Positions 30,248 through 36,043 of a stretch of DNA of 38,977 nt are shown one piece after another (the stretch's first letter is position 1; every line of letters begins with the position of its first letter). This DNA comes from a bacterium. Lineage in GTDB: Bacteria; Elusimicrobiota; Elusimicrobia; Elusimicrobiales; UBA9959. The position numbers and the translations under genes were made by a program. Location of the stretch: assembly GCA_021811405.1 (NCBI GenBank), contig JAJZOZ010000006.1:1-38977 (forward strand). The letters run 5' to 3'. The notes below the pieces were generated by a model that was given only the letters and a program-made list of their open reading frames with translations, was not told the DNA's origin and ran no database searches.

Positions 30248-30938
30248 TATGGACAGGGCGGCGGTCTCCTGGTTCACCGGGGCCTGGGACGACTACGTCT
30301 CCCGCCTGCCGCTGGTCCTCGCCGTAACGCTCACCCAGGCCGCGCTTTCGGCCGGCACCTTCCTGATAATCAGCCGCACGCACACCATGCTGACCTCGCT
30401 GCCGTACATGCTGCTGGTCATCACACCGGTAACGGTAGGCGCCAACCTGGTCTACATCAAGATAGCCCGGGGGACCGGCGGCGCCTACGGGGACCTTTTC
30501 AGCGCTTTCCCGGTCTACCACCGGGCCGTGGCCGTGAGCCTGCTGCTGGGCCTAGCCACCACGGGCGGGGCCCTGCTGCTGGTGCTGCCGGGTGTGATCG
30601 TCTACCTGACCTACATGTTCTCGGAATTCGCCGTCGTGGACCTGCGCGGCGGCGTCAAGGAATCCTTCGCCGTGAGCGCCGCGGCCACGGACGGCTGGAA
30701 GGTGCGCCTGTTCCCGCTGCTGATGGCCACCGCGGCGATAAACTTCGTCGTGCCGGATATCTACGTGATCAAAGGCTTCAGGCATTCCCAGGCCTCGCTG
30801 GACCTCAGGCCCTGGACCGTGACCGCCTCCGTCCTGAAGGACCTGGTGTTCCTGCCCTGGCTGAACATGGCCGCGGCGAGGGCCTACGCCTTCCTGCTCC
30901 CCGCCGCGCTCAGGACCGGCCGTCCGGCGGCCGAATGA
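30234..30938 (+). CDS. multi-pass membrane protein (DUF975/YciC-like pattern)
   Basis: 234 residues with about six hydrophobic segments. The segment LLLVLPGVIVYLTYMFSEFAVVDLRGGVKESFAVSAAATDGWKVRLFPLL follows the pattern L-P-G-[IV]-x3-Y-x-F-[AS]-x-F-x-V-V-D...E-[AS]-[LF]-x-x-S...G-x-x-x, seen in uncharacterised DUF975/YciC/GlpF-like membrane families. Family assignment is by pattern only. It overlaps lipA by 14 bases and its stop overlaps the radical SAM start as ATGA, so it is a middle gene of this operon. Function unknown. Confidence 0.7.
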   Translation: MRPVDMDRAAVSWFTGAWDDYVSRLPLVLAVTLTQAALSAGTFLIISRTHTMLTSLPYMLLVITPVTVGANLVYIKIARGTGGAYGDLFSAFPVYHRAVAVSLLLGLATTGGALLLVLPGVIVYLTYMFSEFAVVDLRGGVKESFAVSAAATDGWKVRLFPLLMATAAINFVVPDIYVIKGFRHSQASLDLRPWTVTASVLKDLVFLPWLNMAAARAYAFLLPAALRTGRPAAE

Positions 30939-32146
30939 AGGTACGGGCGGTATTCTACTACAGCCGCGAGAACCGCTGCAGCATTAACGCACTCGCGGGA
31001 GCGCTCGAGCCCTCCCGCGCCGAAGGCGTCTCCGCGCTTTTCCCTGCCACGTCCCGCGGAATGGCCTCCGCCCTCCGCAGGACCTCCGCGGAAGGACTGC
31101 GGGCAGCGGCCTGCTTCTCCTTCTTCTCCTGCCAGCGTGAATCCACGGCCGCGATAGTCCGGGTACTCAGGGCGCAGACCCCGGGCGCCGTTTTCATAGC
31201 CGGGGGGCCGCATGCCAGCGCCCTCCCGGAGGACGCCCTTTCGATGGGCTTCGACTACGCTGTGGCGGGGGAGGGAGAGAACGCCCTGCCACGGCTGCTC
31301 GCCGCCATCGGGACTGGGGCCAGGCCCGCGGGCCGCGTCATAAAGGGCGCCCGGGCGGACCTCTCCGCCTTCCCGCCGCTCTCGCCGGAGTACGGGCTCT
31401 TCGGCCCGATAGAGATCACCCGGGGCTGTCCTTACGCCTGCACCTACTGCCAGACCTCCTTTCTTTTCGGGGGCAGGCCCCGGCACCGCCCGCTCGGGCA
31501 GATACTGGCCCTGATGAGCACGATGTTCTCCCGCGGCCTCAGAGACATACGCTTCATTACCCCGGACGCCTTCGCCTACGGCTCGCGGGACGGCCGCGGC
31601 GTGGACCTGCCGGCCCTCACCGAGTTCATGCGCCGCGCGGGTGAGCTGGCGGACAGGAAGGGGGGGCGGATCTTCGTCGGGTCGTTCCCCTCCGAAGTGC
31701 GCCCGGACCACGTCACTCCGGAAACGCTGGCCCTGGTGAAGAAGTACGCGGCCAACCGCCGCCTGATAATCGGGGCGCAGACGGCCAGCCCGCGCGCCCT
31801 CGGCGCGGTGAGGCGCGGCCACGGCCCGGAGGAGATCTACTCAGCGGCCCGGCTCTGCAAGGAGTTCCGCATCACGCCGTACCTGGATTTCATCTTCGGC
31901 CTGCCGGGCGAAACGGCGGAGGACGAGGAAGCCTCGATGGAGATGATATCGCGCCTCTCGGCGATGGGAGCCATGATACATACCCACGCCTTCATGCCGC
32001 TGCCGGGCACGCCGCTGGCCGGGGCGCCCGGTGCCAGCATCAGCCCGCGCGTACGCCGCTTCATACAGGCAATGGAAGCCAGGGGGAAGGCCTTCGGGAA
32101 ATGGCGGGCCCAGCTCCAGGCTCCCCGCCGCTGGAAGGTTGACTAA
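30935..32146 (+). CDS. B12-binding-like/radical SAM protein (MJ_1487-like)
   Basis: 403 residues. An N-terminal Rossmann-like segment of about 140 residues ends in VFIAGGPHASALPEDALSMGFDYAVAGEGENALPRLL, the typical cobalamin-binding-domain edge of B12-dependent radical SAM proteins. The radical SAM core follows with the cluster motif C165-x3-C169-x2-C172 (GCPYACTYCQT), then FITPDAFAYGS and YLDFIFGLPGETAEDEE. The overall style resembles the MJ_1487 radical SAM family with no assigned product; methyltransfer or another alkylation is possible. The DXHXXG motif for base-off cobalamin is not obvious, so B12 binding is uncertain. Its stop lies inside the dyad element at 32139-32166. Confidence 0.82.
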   Translation: MKVRAVFYYSRENRCSINALAGALEPSRAEGVSALFPATSRGMASALRRTSAEGLRAAACFSFFSCQRESTAAIVRVLRAQTPGAVFIAGGPHASALPEDALSMGFDYAVAGEGENALPRLLAAIGTGARPAGRVIKGARADLSAFPPLSPEYGLFGPIEITRGCPYACTYCQTSFLFGGRPRHRPLGQILALMSTMFSRGLRDIRFITPDAFAYGSRDGRGVDLPALTEFMRRAGELADRKGGRIFVGSFPSEVRPDHVTPETLALVKKYAANRRLIIGAQTASPRALGAVRRGHGPEEIYSAARLCKEFRITPYLDFIFGLPGETAEDEEASMEMISRLSAMGAMIHTHAFMPLPGTPLAGAPGASISPRVRRFIQAMEARGKAFGKWRAQLQAPRRWKVD

Positions 32147-32249: not shown

Positions 32250-33119
32250 ATGAAGAAATTAGCGATAGCAGCGGCGGCCCTTTTCAGCGCCGGCGCCCTC
32301 TACGCGACGGAGCTCAACGGGATCTCCGCCGCCGACATCAAGGTCCCCGAGTCCGCCCTGCCGGCCCCGGCCTTCGTCCAGGAGGACGGCGCGAAGTGCG
32401 GCCACTACTCCGGCGAGATCACCGCCAACATGCACCTCTACGCGCAGGCTTCCAAGAGCCGGCTCTTCACCTACGCCAAGACCGAGGCCGAATTCAAGGA
32501 GTTCGTCTCCTTCTGGACGCCCATCATCGGCAAGTTCGGCATTAAGGTCGTCTCCACCGAGTACAAGGCCGATATCGGCTACGGCTTCCTGAAATACGAG
32601 TCCGCCGACGGCCGCGTGATACGCATGTTCAACGGCGACGGCATGAACTACGACGCCCTCAGCCAGGAGGCCATGAAGAAGGAGCAGCACATGCTCCTCG
32701 AGGCCCTCGAGCGGGAAGAGATGACGCCGGTGGCCGCGTTCATGATCAAGAACGACGTCTTCCGCCCCACCTTCAACGTCTACTACCTGACGCAGCCCGA
32801 CGAGAACGAGGACCACGAGGTCCAGCTGCGCCAGCTGAAGAACGGCGACGACATCGACTTCGACCTCCTGACCGGCAAGGTCGCGCTGGTGGAGAAGGAC
32901 GCCTCCTTCTCGCTGGTCTACATAGGCAAGCTGCTCGGCATGAAGTCCAAGATAGCGGCGGACGAGGCCGGCATCGCGCAGAAGCTCGAAGACTACAAGA
33001 AGTTCCTGTCCGAGAACAAGAAGGAGTTCATCGCTTCCAGGACTTTCAAGCTCGACAAGCCCTTCGCGGTAGGGGACCAGACCTACAACTACGCGGCCAA
33101 CATCTACTTCTTCCAGTAG
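32250..33119 (+). CDS. secreted protein of unknown function
   Basis: 289 residues with a clear signal peptide (MKKLAIAAAALFSAGALYA). The mature part starts TELNGISAADIKVPESALPAPAF, a short linker-like stretch, then mixed alpha/beta sequence rich in Lys/Glu with one cysteine (KCGHYSGEI). I do not recognise a domain or catalytic motif. GGAGG lies a few bases before the ATG, and a TATAGAAT -10-like box lies at 32212-32219. A strong terminator follows, so it is a single-gene transcript. The opening ELN plus short linker is also seen in the trypsin zymogen here, but this is too weak to imply homology. Confidence 0.72.
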   Translation: MKKLAIAAAALFSAGALYATELNGISAADIKVPESALPAPAFVQEDGAKCGHYSGEITANMHLYAQASKSRLFTYAKTEAEFKEFVSFWTPIIGKFGIKVVSTEYKADIGYGFLKYESADGRVIRMFNGDGMNYDALSQEAMKKEQHMLLEALEREEMTPVAAFMIKNDVFRPTFNVYYLTQPDENEDHEVQLRQLKNGDDIDFDLLTGKVALVEKDASFSLVYIGKLLGMKSKIAADEAGIAQKLEDYKKFLSENKKEFIASRTFKLDKPFAVGDQTYNYAANIYFFQ

Positions 33120-33304: not shown

Positions 33305-35113
33305 ATGCCGGGGATAACCCGCGCGATAAAGGTGCTGCTGATCGAGGACAACCCTCACGACGCCGAGGTCGTGGAGGGACTCCTCGGCTCCGGGATGCCA
33401 GCGCAGTTCGAGGTATCCGAAGCCGGGTCGCTGGAACAGGCCGGCTCCAGGGACAAGGAGGACAGGTCCGACGTGATACTGCTGGACCTGAACCTGCCGG
33501 ATTCCTTCGGCGCCAAGACCCTGATAGCCGCCCGCGACATGTTCCCGGACAGGCCCATCATAGTGATGACCGGCCGCTACGAGAAGACGCTGGGCGTGCA
33601 GCTGGTCAAGAAAGGCGCGCAGGACTACATCGTCAAGGGATCGCTCACGGCCCCGGGGCTGTCGTACGCCATACGCTTCGCCATAGAGCGGGCCCGCAAC
33701 GAGACGCGCGCCAAACAGGCCGAGGCCGGCCTGCGCGCCCTTCTCGAAAAGCTGCCGGAGGGAATACTCGTGGTGCGCGGCGAAGGCTCCGTAGTCTTCG
33801 CCAACCTCGGGGCGAGGACGCTGCTGGGAAGGGACCTGGACTACCTGCTCTCAAATCCCTACTCTCTGCCGCAGGCCAAGGACGCCCCGGCCGAGTTCGA
33901 CCTGCTGCGCCAGGACGGCCGGAAGATACCGCTGGAGATACGCGAGACGGATATAGACTGGGCCGGGGAACCCTGCCGCCTGGTGATGCTGCGCGACCTT
34001 ACCGCGAGGCGCGAGCTGGAGTACAACCGGGGAGAGTTCATCTCCCGCGTCTCCCACGAACTGCGCTCGCCGCTTACCATAGTGCGGGAATCCATGGACC
34101 TGATATACGACGGAAGCACCGGAGAGGTGACCTCTCAGCAGAAGGAGCTGCTGCGCATGGGGCTGGACAACGTTTCAAGGCTGAACGGCCTGATAGACTC
34201 GCTTCTGGACATCACCAAGATGGAGGCGGGCGTGATGCCGATGGACGTGGCCGAGGCGGACCTCCGCGCGCTGCTCGCCTCCACGGCCGACGACTATGTC
34301 AGGCTCGCGGCCGAGAAGGGGATAAGGCTGGAGCGCAGCCTGCCGGCCGGGCCAATGGCGGCCTACTGCGACGCGGATAAGCTGCGGCAGGTCCTGGACA
34401 ACCTCGTCTCCAACGCCCTGAAGTTCACACCGGACGGCGGCAGGATAACCCTTTCCCTTGCGCACCTGGACAACCAGGCGCTGTTCTGCGTGGAGAACAC
34501 CGGCTCCGGCATACAGCCGGAGGACCTGCCCAAGCTTTTCGGCAAGTTCACCCAGCTCAACAATACCGGCTCCGCCGGGATCAAGGGGACCGGGCTGGGG
34601 CTGGCCATCAGCCGCGGCATAATGGAGATGCACGCCGGCAGCATCTGGGCCGAAAGCGCCCCGGGCAGCTGGTGCAAGTTCTTCGCCCTGCTGCCGCTGC
34701 ACGCTTTCGAGGACTCGGCCCGCCTGCTGGTCAGGCGCGAGCTGGCGGCGGCCTCCGGCAAAAAGCGCTTCTGCGCCCTGGCCCTCGCGCTGCCGGAGAA
34801 CGTGCGGATAGCGGCGGAAAGGTCCGCGGGAAAAGGCGGCGGCGTCTGCGCCTCCATCAAGAATTCGCTGCGCAGCTCGCACGGCAGGGTGACCGGAGGG
34901 GAATGGGACCTGCTGGTCTTCCTTCCCGAAAGCGGCCCAAAGGAATCCGCCAAGGCGCTGGCCTTCGTGCAGGGCGCCCTGCAGAAAGCCGGCGGCCTGA
35001 CCCCGCAGCAGGCCTCCGCGAGGATAGCCACGCTGCTGTACCCTGATGATTTCACCGGCGAGGACGGCTTCATAGCCGCCCTGCGCGGCGCGAGGGGGAG
35101 GATCTATGCCTAA
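33305..35113 (+). CDS. hybrid sensor kinase: REC - PAS-like - HisKA - HATPase - degenerate GGDEF-like
   Basis: 602 residues, no membrane segment, so a soluble signalling protein. A receiver domain comes first (IEDNPHD, phospho-Asp61 in ILLDLNLPDS, MTG and K111). A PAS-like segment follows at 140-235, then HisKA with His251 (SRVSHELRSPLT) and a HATPase domain (DNLVSNALKFTP, ENTGSGIQPEDL, GTGLGLAIS). The last 120 residues resemble a GGDEF domain whose signature reads GGEW (about 531-534), followed by LLVFLPESGPKESAKAL and LLYPDDFTGEDGFI; it should be catalytically inactive. The start is uncertain: ATG 33305 follows a nine-G run, and GTG 33248 is the alternative. The end overlaps the response regulator by 8 bases. 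Confidence 0.85.
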   Translation: MPGITRAIKVLLIEDNPHDAEVVEGLLGSGMPAQFEVSEAGSLEQAGSRDKEDRSDVILLDLNLPDSFGAKTLIAARDMFPDRPIIVMTGRYEKTLGVQLVKKGAQDYIVKGSLTAPGLSYAIRFAIERARNETRAKQAEAGLRALLEKLPEGILVVRGEGSVVFANLGARTLLGRDLDYLLSNPYSLPQAKDAPAEFDLLRQDGRKIPLEIRETDIDWAGEPCRLVMLRDLTARRELEYNRGEFISRVSHELRSPLTIVRESMDLIYDGSTGEVTSQQKELLRMGLDNVSRLNGLIDSLLDITKMEAGVMPMDVAEADLRALLASTADDYVRLAAEKGIRLERSLPAGPMAAYCDADKLRQVLDNLVSNALKFTPDGGRITLSLAHLDNQALFCVENTGSGIQPEDLPKLFGKFTQLNNTGSAGIKGTGLGLAISRGIMEMHAGSIWAESAPGSWCKFFALLPLHAFEDSARLLVRRELAAASGKKRFCALALALPENVRIAAERSAGKGGGVCASIKNSLRSSHGRVTGGEWDLLVFLPESGPKESAKALAFVQGALQKAGGLTPQQASARIATLLYPDDFTGEDGFIAALRGARGRIYA

Positions 35114-35462
35114 GATACTGCTGATAGAGGACGAGCCGCAGCACGCCGCCCTCGTAAAGATGCGGCTGGAGGCCAACGGGATGCAGGTATTCTGTTCCCG
35201 TACGGCCGCGGGCGGGGCGGCGGCGGCCCTGAAAGACCGTCCGGACCTCGTGCTCCTGGACCTGCTCCTGCCGGACATGCGCCCGGAAGAAGCGGTGCAG
35301 GCTGTCTCCCGAGCCTCGGACAGTCCCATCCTGGCGCTTACGGCGCTGGACCTGGGCGAGATACACCGCCGGAAGCTGGACTCGCAGGTCGCCGGCATAG
35401 TAACCAAGCCCTACGATCCAGCCGTGCTCCTCGAAGAGATCCGGAGACTTACCGCGAAATGA
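35106..35462 (+). CDS. single-domain response regulator
   Basis: 118 residues, a stand-alone receiver domain: acidic pocket IEDEPQ, phospho-acceptor in LVLLDLLLPD (about Asp51), ALTA (Thr/Ser position) and KPYD (conserved Lys). No output domain, so it acts by protein contact or as a phosphate relay or sink. The start overlaps the kinase stop by 8 bases, and the kinase is its obvious partner. The stop TGA abuts the convergent HD-gene stop (TGATCA), with no hairpin between them. Confidence 0.92.
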   Translation: MPKILLIEDEPQHAALVKMRLEANGMQVFCSRTAAGGAAAALKDRPDLVLLDLLLPDMRPEEAVQAVSRASDSPILALTALDLGEIHRRKLDSQVAGIVTKPYDPAVLLEEIRRLTAK

Positions 35463-36020
35463 TCAGAGCCCCAGCTCTCCCGCTATGCCGCGCATAGCGG
35501 AAAGAGCCACCTCGACGAACTCGTCCAACTTCAATCCCAGGCGCTCGCATTCCATTATTATCGACCTGTCCACCGAGGCGGCGAAGCGCTTGTCCTTCAT
35601 GCGCTTGACCACGGAAGAGGTCTTGACGCTGGCCAGTTTCCTGTCCGGGTAGACCAGCGCCGTGGCGGTGATCAGGCCGGTGACGGTCTCGGCCGCCGCC
35701 AGGGCGTGATGGAAAAGCCCGGCGCGCTTCTTCCCGGGGTGGGCCGCCTCGTTGTGCAGGTTCACGGCCTCTATCAGGGGCTCCGGCAGCCCGCTGCCGC
35801 GCAGGAGCTTCTCGGCCTCGTGAGTGTGCCGCGAGATGTCGCCGGCGGTAAGCTCAACGTCCACGTCGTGCAGCAGGCCCGCGAGGCCCCAGAGCCCGCG
35901 GTCCTGCCCCAGGCGGTCCGCGAGGGCCTTCATCACGGCCTCGGAAGCCAGGCAGTGCTTTATCATGTTCCCGTTGCTGACATGCCGCCTAAGCAGCGCC
36001 AGCGCGCCGTCTCTTTCCAT
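35463..36020 (-). CDS. HD-domain protein, predicted phosphohydrolase
   Basis: 185 residues when started at ATG 36020 (MERDGALALL), preferred because GGAGG precedes it; the longer GTG start at 36038 lacks a ribosome binding site. Metal-binding HD residues: His22 (MIKHCLASE), His51-Asp52 (AGLLHDVD), His65/His67 in SRHTHEAE, and His in VNLHNEAAH. This fits the YfbR/HDIG-like group of small HD hydrolases acting on nucleotides or cyclic nucleotides; the substrate is unknown. A -10 TATAAT lies upstream. It ends head-to-tail against the response regulator gene. Confidence 0.85.
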   Translation of the reverse strand: MERDGALALLRRHVSNGNMIKHCLASEAVMKALADRLGQDRGLWGLAGLLHDVDVELTAGDISRHTHEAEKLLRGSGLPEPLIEAVNLHNEAAHPGKKRAGLFHHALAAAETVTGLITATALVYPDRKLASVKTSSVVKRMKDKRFAASVDRSIIMECERLGLKLDEFVEVALSAMRGIAGELGL

Positions 36021-36043
36021 GTTCCCTCCGTAACTCACGTAAG

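Follow-up and report, generated by a model that had tools for sequence, protein, structure and literature searches.

A histidine kinase with a putative degenerate GGDEF tail in a genus of Elusimicrobiota

The kinase gene, its domains and its neighbours

The window (the whole stretch of DNA that was analysed, 38,977 nt, GCA_021811405.1, contig JAJZOZ010000006.1) comes from a bacterium of the Elusimicrobiota (UBA9959). It carries a gene for a histidine kinase with an N-terminal receiver domain (REC) and, directly behind the catalytic domain, a tail that resembles a degenerate GGDEF domain. A response regulator gene follows. The features are:

33305..35113, + strand, REC-PAS-HisKA-HATPase-pseudoGGDEF histidine kinase, 602 aa plus stop
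33332..33640, + strand, REC domain, residues 10-112 (Pfam PF00072, E 8e-14)
33731..33844, + strand, marginal PAS match, residues 143-180 (Pfam PF13188, 22.4 bits, cut-off 21.8)
34028..34231, + strand, HisKA dimerisation/phosphoacceptor domain, residues 242-309 (Pfam PF00512, E 3.5e-12)
34370..34699, + strand, HATPase_c catalytic domain, residues 356-465 (Pfam PF02518, E 2.2e-28)
34700..35110, + strand, putative degenerate GGDEF domain, residues 466-602, GGDEF-aligned over about 470-593 (hhalign with controls; model)
35106..35462, + strand, single-domain (receiver-only) response regulator, 118 aa (PF00072, E 1.6e-13)

Both PF00512 and PF02518 were above their cut-offs, which classifies the protein as a histidine kinase. 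The catalytic residues H251, N366, N370, G428, G430 and G432 were invariant in 24/24 orthologs, as was Asp61 of the REC domain. The reading frame, the domain order and the letters agreed with the original prediction, including GGEW at residues 531-534, LPES at 540-543 and YPDD at 579-582. The extent of the tail had to be revised: it had been started at position 34,745, and the homologous region was found to begin directly after HATPase, at about residue 468-470, some 33-39 nt earlier. A membrane-like segment was not apparent in the kinase (the highest 19-residue Kyte-Doolittle mean was 1.09), suggesting that REC probably receives its phosphoryl signal from another kinase.

The regulator gene overlaps the kinase gene by 8 nt, and the two were classed as a two-component pair. 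The regulator adjoined the kinase in 19/24 genomes, while a contig end prevented the call in one (G003). In G022, G027, G029 and G013, where adjacency only was examined, it was not found next to the kinase. Because the tail is kept in these four without the regulator alongside, the idea that the adjacent regulator is the obligatory partner of the tail was rejected.

The kinase is flanked by the gene of a 289-aa protein (32250-33119) and, on the opposite strand, by genes for an HDIG protein and for a tRNA synthetase of class II (D/K/N-type). This order recurred across the fetched neighbourhoods as far as the contig reached. The HDIG-domain protein gene (35463-36038, - strand) is convergent with the kinase-regulator pair, and its product was 68-79% identical where found in the genus. 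Ten genomes (L202, L208, L209, L212-L216, L239 and L240) had about 3 to 3.6 kb extra between the 289-aa gene and the kinase. A B12-binding radical SAM protein (TIGR04013, 398.8 bits, cut-off 251) is encoded at 30935-32146 (+ strand); some of the fetched neighbourhoods, but not all, had its gene at the same place.

Distribution of the kinase and the tail

A search with the last 123 residues of the kinase matched 25 of 101 genomes, comprising 24/32 genomes of the genus (the window's own included) at E values of 3.8e-7 or below and one further genome of the same family. The match in the latter (L031, E 0.004) and a second match in G020 (L032, E 0.006) lay in short frames that contain no kinase sequence, and both were set aside. 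A profile built from 23 orthologous tails (L018, truncated at a contig end, was left out) was then applied to 340 genomes of the phylum, with at most 12 candidates scored per genome. It matched 27, namely the same 24 and three outsiders beyond the genus; these three were weak (E 0.001-0.007), their loci (L137-L139) contain GGDEF proteins, and they were rejected. A search with the REC-PAS part gave 24 matches above 200 bits, all in the genomes already counted; among the 32, no other match exceeded 91 bits. Since the REC-PAS and tail searches matched the same genomes, kinase and tail co-occur wherever they were seen. All 24 orthologous kinases carried the tail, one of them truncated at a contig end, with 46-52% identity to that of the window. 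The same fusion, which the original prediction proposed to look for in relatives, was thus found in 24/32 genomes of the genus. In a scan of contigs with the full-length alignment, which supplied diverse GGDEF sequences and the L051 kinase described below, the best segments of the top 80 loci did not exceed 39% identity, and no ortholog-like locus was among them.

Neither kinase nor tail was found in the other 8/32 genomes of the genus, which are drafts of 63-100% estimated completeness. In four of these (G006, G018, G004 and G021) the flanking genes are direct neighbours, their open frames separated by 74-81 nt as measured from stop to stop. The fetched stretches of G002 and G011 gave no HDIG gene, that of G026 ends at a contig end, and only a divergent copy of a flanking gene was recovered from G031. 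A tree of the two flanking proteins, midpoint-rooted only, covered 27 genomes, of which 20 have the kinase and 7 lack it; G001, G008, G019, G023 and G031 were left out. Six of the eight kinase-less genomes formed one clade nested among the kinase-bearing ones with modest support (0.74), which points to loss of the whole kinase gene and favours such a loss over a late gain.

Ancestry of the tail and its lost residues

The resemblance to GGDEF had been judged by eye. When the window tail was used alone (last 137 residues), no Pfam family matched at E≤10, and its score against the GGDEF HMM was 1.1 bits, with 5.9 bits for the best shuffle. Across the family, 22/23 tails scored against this HMM, and 10 of them exceeded the best of 460 shuffles (5.9 bits); the window tail was the second-weakest. 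PF00990 was matched at E≤10 by 4/23 tails, the best at 6.3e-5. A comparison set was prepared from 25 non-redundant GGDEF domains of the fetched loci, less L006 and L051, and the exact GG[DE]EF was present in 18 of the resulting 23. The profile of 23 tails was aligned with these 23 domains by hhalign at 96.6% (P 4.9e-10) over 125 columns. REC, PAS, HisKA and HATPase controls reached at most 2.9% against GGDEF, 50 column shuffles at most 6.1%, and the reversed profile 0.6%. Homology to GGDEF is unprovable from the window sequence alone and evident profile against profile, and it is the family comparison, not the window sequence, that excludes chance. These results bear out the judgement by eye and indicate that the last ~135 residues of the kinase descend from a GGDEF domain.

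The reverse search gave a similar picture. The fetched loci, a set enriched for GGDEF (100 ORFs), comprise 7506 ORFs, and the tail HMM matched 119 of them. Among the matches, 95 also had a HATPase domain; these were not itemised, and family genes had been fetched several times over. The other 24 were all GGDEF proteins of at least 167 bits, with weak tail E-values of 1e-4 to 0.09. A profile search of the PDB with the tail was topped by the GGDEF domain of DosC at a weak E-value of 0.0055, and unrelated proteins appeared from rank 3.

The fold of the tail was also predicted. AlphaFold without an alignment returned an all-helical model with a pLDDT of 53, too poor to use. The second model was given 14 rows, 13 GGDEF domains and the L051 tail, in a MAFFT alignment that placed the motif region otherwise than hhalign did. 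It showed a GGDEF fold with a pLDDT of 86 and a pTM of 0.77, a result that is partly circular because GGDEF rows served as input, so that the model indicates compatibility and not independent proof. In Foldseek, a Thermotoga GGDEF domain ranked first (E 7.6e-4, TM 0.61) and was the sole match below 0.001; non-GGDEF folds appeared from rank 18 on. The VIA-align rows shown were titled GGDEF, cyclase or related c-di-GMP proteins, the best being a GGDEF protein (Z 12.4, rmsd 2.8, 119 aligned). PelD of Pseudomonas aeruginosa (PDB 4dmz, 4dn0) also matched the model (Z 10.0, rmsd 3.8, 120 aligned). PelD is a degenerate GGDEF protein that is not known to have cyclase activity and binds c-di-GMP through its I-site; unlike the window protein, it is not a kinase. 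An unrelated predicted fold had been named beforehand as the result that would speak against the homology. The only confident model was GGDEF-like, but it had been fed GGDEF sequences, and the model without them was unusable. That the tail is some other fold with a similar spacing of strands and helices is in our view hardly credible: the missing Pfam match of the window tail and the helical single-sequence model would fit it, but the controlled hhalign comparison and the reverse HMM search argue against it, as does, weakly, the DosC match.

We were particularly interested in which GGDEF signatures the tail has lost and which residues it keeps. The relevant positions are:

34871..34882, + strand, former I-site RxxD, R523-S-S-H526 (Arg in 22/24 orthologs, Asp in 0/24)
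34898..34912, + strand, positions equivalent to GG[DE]EF, G532-E533-W534-D535-L536 (hhalign and ortholog alignment)
34943..34945, + strand, Glu547, invariant in 24/24 orthologs (ortholog comparison)
35039..35053, + strand, Y579-P-D-D-F583, family motif [YF]PxDF, with P580, D582 and F583 invariant in 24

The GGEW of the window had been read as a relic of the motif. The ortholog alignment and hhalign both put GG[DE]EF on residues 532-536, so GGEW is one residue out of register and was rejected as the relic motif; no other ortholog shares its GG at 531-532. A GG dipeptide at motif positions 1-2 was found in 0/24 orthologs, the window reading GEWDL, and position 4 was acidic in 21/24. The Asp column of the I-site held His in 20/24. 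The metal-site Asp columns of beta-1 (residues 495 and 497, columns from hhalign) held Asp in 1/24 and 0/24 orthologs, and Ala and Pro in the window; a different beta-1 Asp, two residues ahead of the first of these columns, was present in 7/24. A conserved counterpart of the guanine-binding stretch K-x-x-N-D / G-H-x-x-G-D was not found in the tail by hhalign, and the C-terminal AD-x-ALY-x-AK-x-x-GRN stretch falls outside the alignment. The LPES and YPDD segments were aligned with their GGDEF counterparts, as had been proposed. The metal- and guanine-binding roles of these positions follow PMC7288161 in part.

The loss of signature residues (GG 0/24, I-site Asp 0/24) indicates a dead cyclase, and cyclase activity of the tail is excluded for practical purposes. 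The description of the tail as a dead GGDEF domain thus agrees with the profile homology, the lack of GG at the motif in 24/24 and the unrecognisable guanine-binding stretch. The further suggestion that it could bind c-di-GMP or GTP found no support in the residues, and c-di-GMP binding through the I-site seems unlikely, its Asp being missing in 24/24.

The conservation of the tail was compared with that of the other domains. Mean pairwise identity was 40% for the tail, 64% for REC, 56% for PAS, 73% for HisKA and 67% for HATPase, making the tail the fastest-diverging domain; moreover, its first loop varies in length. Tail dN/dS in the eight closest pairs, which share members and hence are not independent, was 0.10, 0.56, 0.14, 0.15, 0.25, 0.19, 0.21 and 0.17. 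The tail is under purifying selection, weaker in one pair. Could the tail be a decaying remnant, which merely caps the catalytic domain and is kept since truncation destabilises the kinase? The rapid divergence, the variable loop and the one close pair at 0.56 fit such a remnant, but the tail is present on 24/24 kinases of the genus at 46-52% identity to the window, E547, P580, D582 and F583 do not vary and R523 and L577 hardly do, and 7/8 pairs lie at 0.10-0.25. We consider a remnant unlikely.

Possible role of the tail

Known systems were compared with the window kinase, and in the open-licence literature that was searched only SgmT and DdpA resemble its design. SgmT of Myxococcus xanthus is a histidine kinase whose C-terminal GGDEF domain binds c-di-GMP by its I-site, and it is sequestered by c-di-GMP (PMC3509222). 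This domain serves localisation: c-di-GMP had no significant effect on autophosphorylation or phosphotransfer, and removal of the domain did not change expression profiles significantly (PMC3509222). Both kinases have a C-terminal GGDEF as regulatory module and a separate response regulator, DigR in the case of SgmT (PMC3509222). Of the systems compared, SgmT is the closest precedent of the window kinase. Unlike in SgmT, the tail of the window kinase stands directly after HATPase and lacks the I-site Asp, and the receiver lies at the N-terminus. DdpA of Bordetella bronchiseptica, which an active cyclase requires, combines a degenerate GGDEF domain with a predicted kinase domain; unlike the window kinase, it is membrane-associated, carries a degenerate EAL domain in addition and has a known cyclase partner (PMC12805831).

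A similar arrangement was found in the L051 kinase of an Omnitrophota MAG (CAIJHQ010000010.1, 3-1613, + strand), in which PAS-HisKA-HATPase are directly followed by a degenerate GGDEF domain with KDDKA at the motif. It was the only ORF of the fetched loci matched by both the GGDEF and the HATPase HMM. Unlike the window tail, its GGDEF domain passes the Pfam cut-off (31.6 vs 23.8 bits). Because the ORF begins at a contig end, it may have lost another domain at its N-terminus. Its kinase core comes no higher than 8th among the non-family kinases, and this does not establish that the two fusions share an origin. With the L051 tail as query, 42 of 334 genomes of the window's phylum were matched; the 30 loci fetched from these contain GGDEF proteins of at least 159.9 bits, and no kinase domain was seen in the fetched stretches of those 30.

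Six GGDEF matches were counted in the window's genome, three above 150 bits and three receiver-GGDEF proteins with GGDDF at 48-58 bits, along with 2 PilZ and 4 MshEN matches above cut-off as possible c-di-GMP receptors. These matches make c-di-GMP signalling plausible in the organism. Among these findings, nothing ties the kinase tail to it. Such a host, with its three high-scoring GGDEF domains and its possible receptors, would suit a receptor of the SgmT kind, in which c-di-GMP would bind to the tail at a new site or by way of the I-site Arg that is left, and the kinase would thereby be localised or tuned, as SgmT is sequestered through its I-site. Arg523 is kept in 22/24. However, the Asp is missing in 24/24, with His instead in 20, RxxD is the receptor motif (PMC7288161), and SgmT with the I-site mutation R763A neither bound c-di-GMP nor clustered any longer (PMC3509222). 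This reading is improbable.

Alternatively, the former active site could still detect a nucleotide such as GTP, with no cyclisation, and the tail could pass this information on to the kinase. According to a review, one degenerate GGDEF domain binds GTP and thereby activates its EAL neighbour, and another has ATPase activity (PMC7288161). An acidic residue stands at motif position 4 in 21/24, which together with the I-site Arg in 22/24 leaves some room for nucleotide binding. The lack of a conserved guanine-binding counterpart, with the AD-x-ALY-x-AK-x-x-GRN stretch lying outside the alignment, and the near-absence of Asp from the metal-site columns (1/24 and 0/24) count against a nucleotide sensor, which we regard as quite improbable.

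The pseudo-GGDEF domain fused to this histidine kinase is real and well supported. GGDEF ancestry, signature loss, co-occurrence with the kinase, purifying selection and gene pairing were established computationally. The signatures are lost, yet the tail is kept by all related kinases found in the genus, suggesting that it is probably a contact or positioning module. Our preferred reading, held with moderate confidence, is a nucleotide-independent module of this kind, carried by a kinase that is ordinary in other respects and has the neighbouring regulator as its target; a contact role was among the options that the original prediction named. In this reading a GGDEF descendant devoid of cyclase activity and of the I-site stands directly behind the catalytic domain. 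The N-terminal REC would be phosphorylated by another kinase, the signal would run from REC through PAS to HisKA/HATPase, and His251 would phosphorylate the adjacent single-domain response regulator. The pseudo-GGDEF would probably bind a protein partner, which may be its own second copy, a genuine diguanylate cyclase or a scaffold at a cell site, perhaps via the surface on which E547 and the [YF]PxDF motif lie, and the contact would position the kinase or restrict movement of the catalytic domain. Should the tail pair specifically with the GGDEF domain of a genuine cyclase through the E547/[YF]PxDF surface, the kinase might report the oligomeric or bound state of that cyclase and not c-di-GMP; we consider this variant a long shot. 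Against a contact module stand the fastest divergence (40% vs 56-73%) and the one pair at 0.56, as a mere packing remnant might show, and also the four genomes with the tail but without the adjacent regulator. In IsmP, moreover, a defect in the degenerate GGDEF domain had little effect on partner contact (PMC10904736), which counts against a general contact rule.

Degenerate GGDEF domains are often assumed to be c-di-GMP receptors. Given that catalytic and I-site signatures are both gone here while the tail stays with its kinase across the genus, this family offers a clean case for the role of such domains without the messenger. Such domains can escape notice, since the single sequence has no Pfam match and the family profile is plain.

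A separate observation concerns other GGDEF proteins. L004, L005 and L006, on contigs C5, C182 and C205 of the window's own genome, each have at least one receiver domain followed by a divergent GGDEF domain with H-x-GGDDF, and similar lower-scoring matches recur across the genus.
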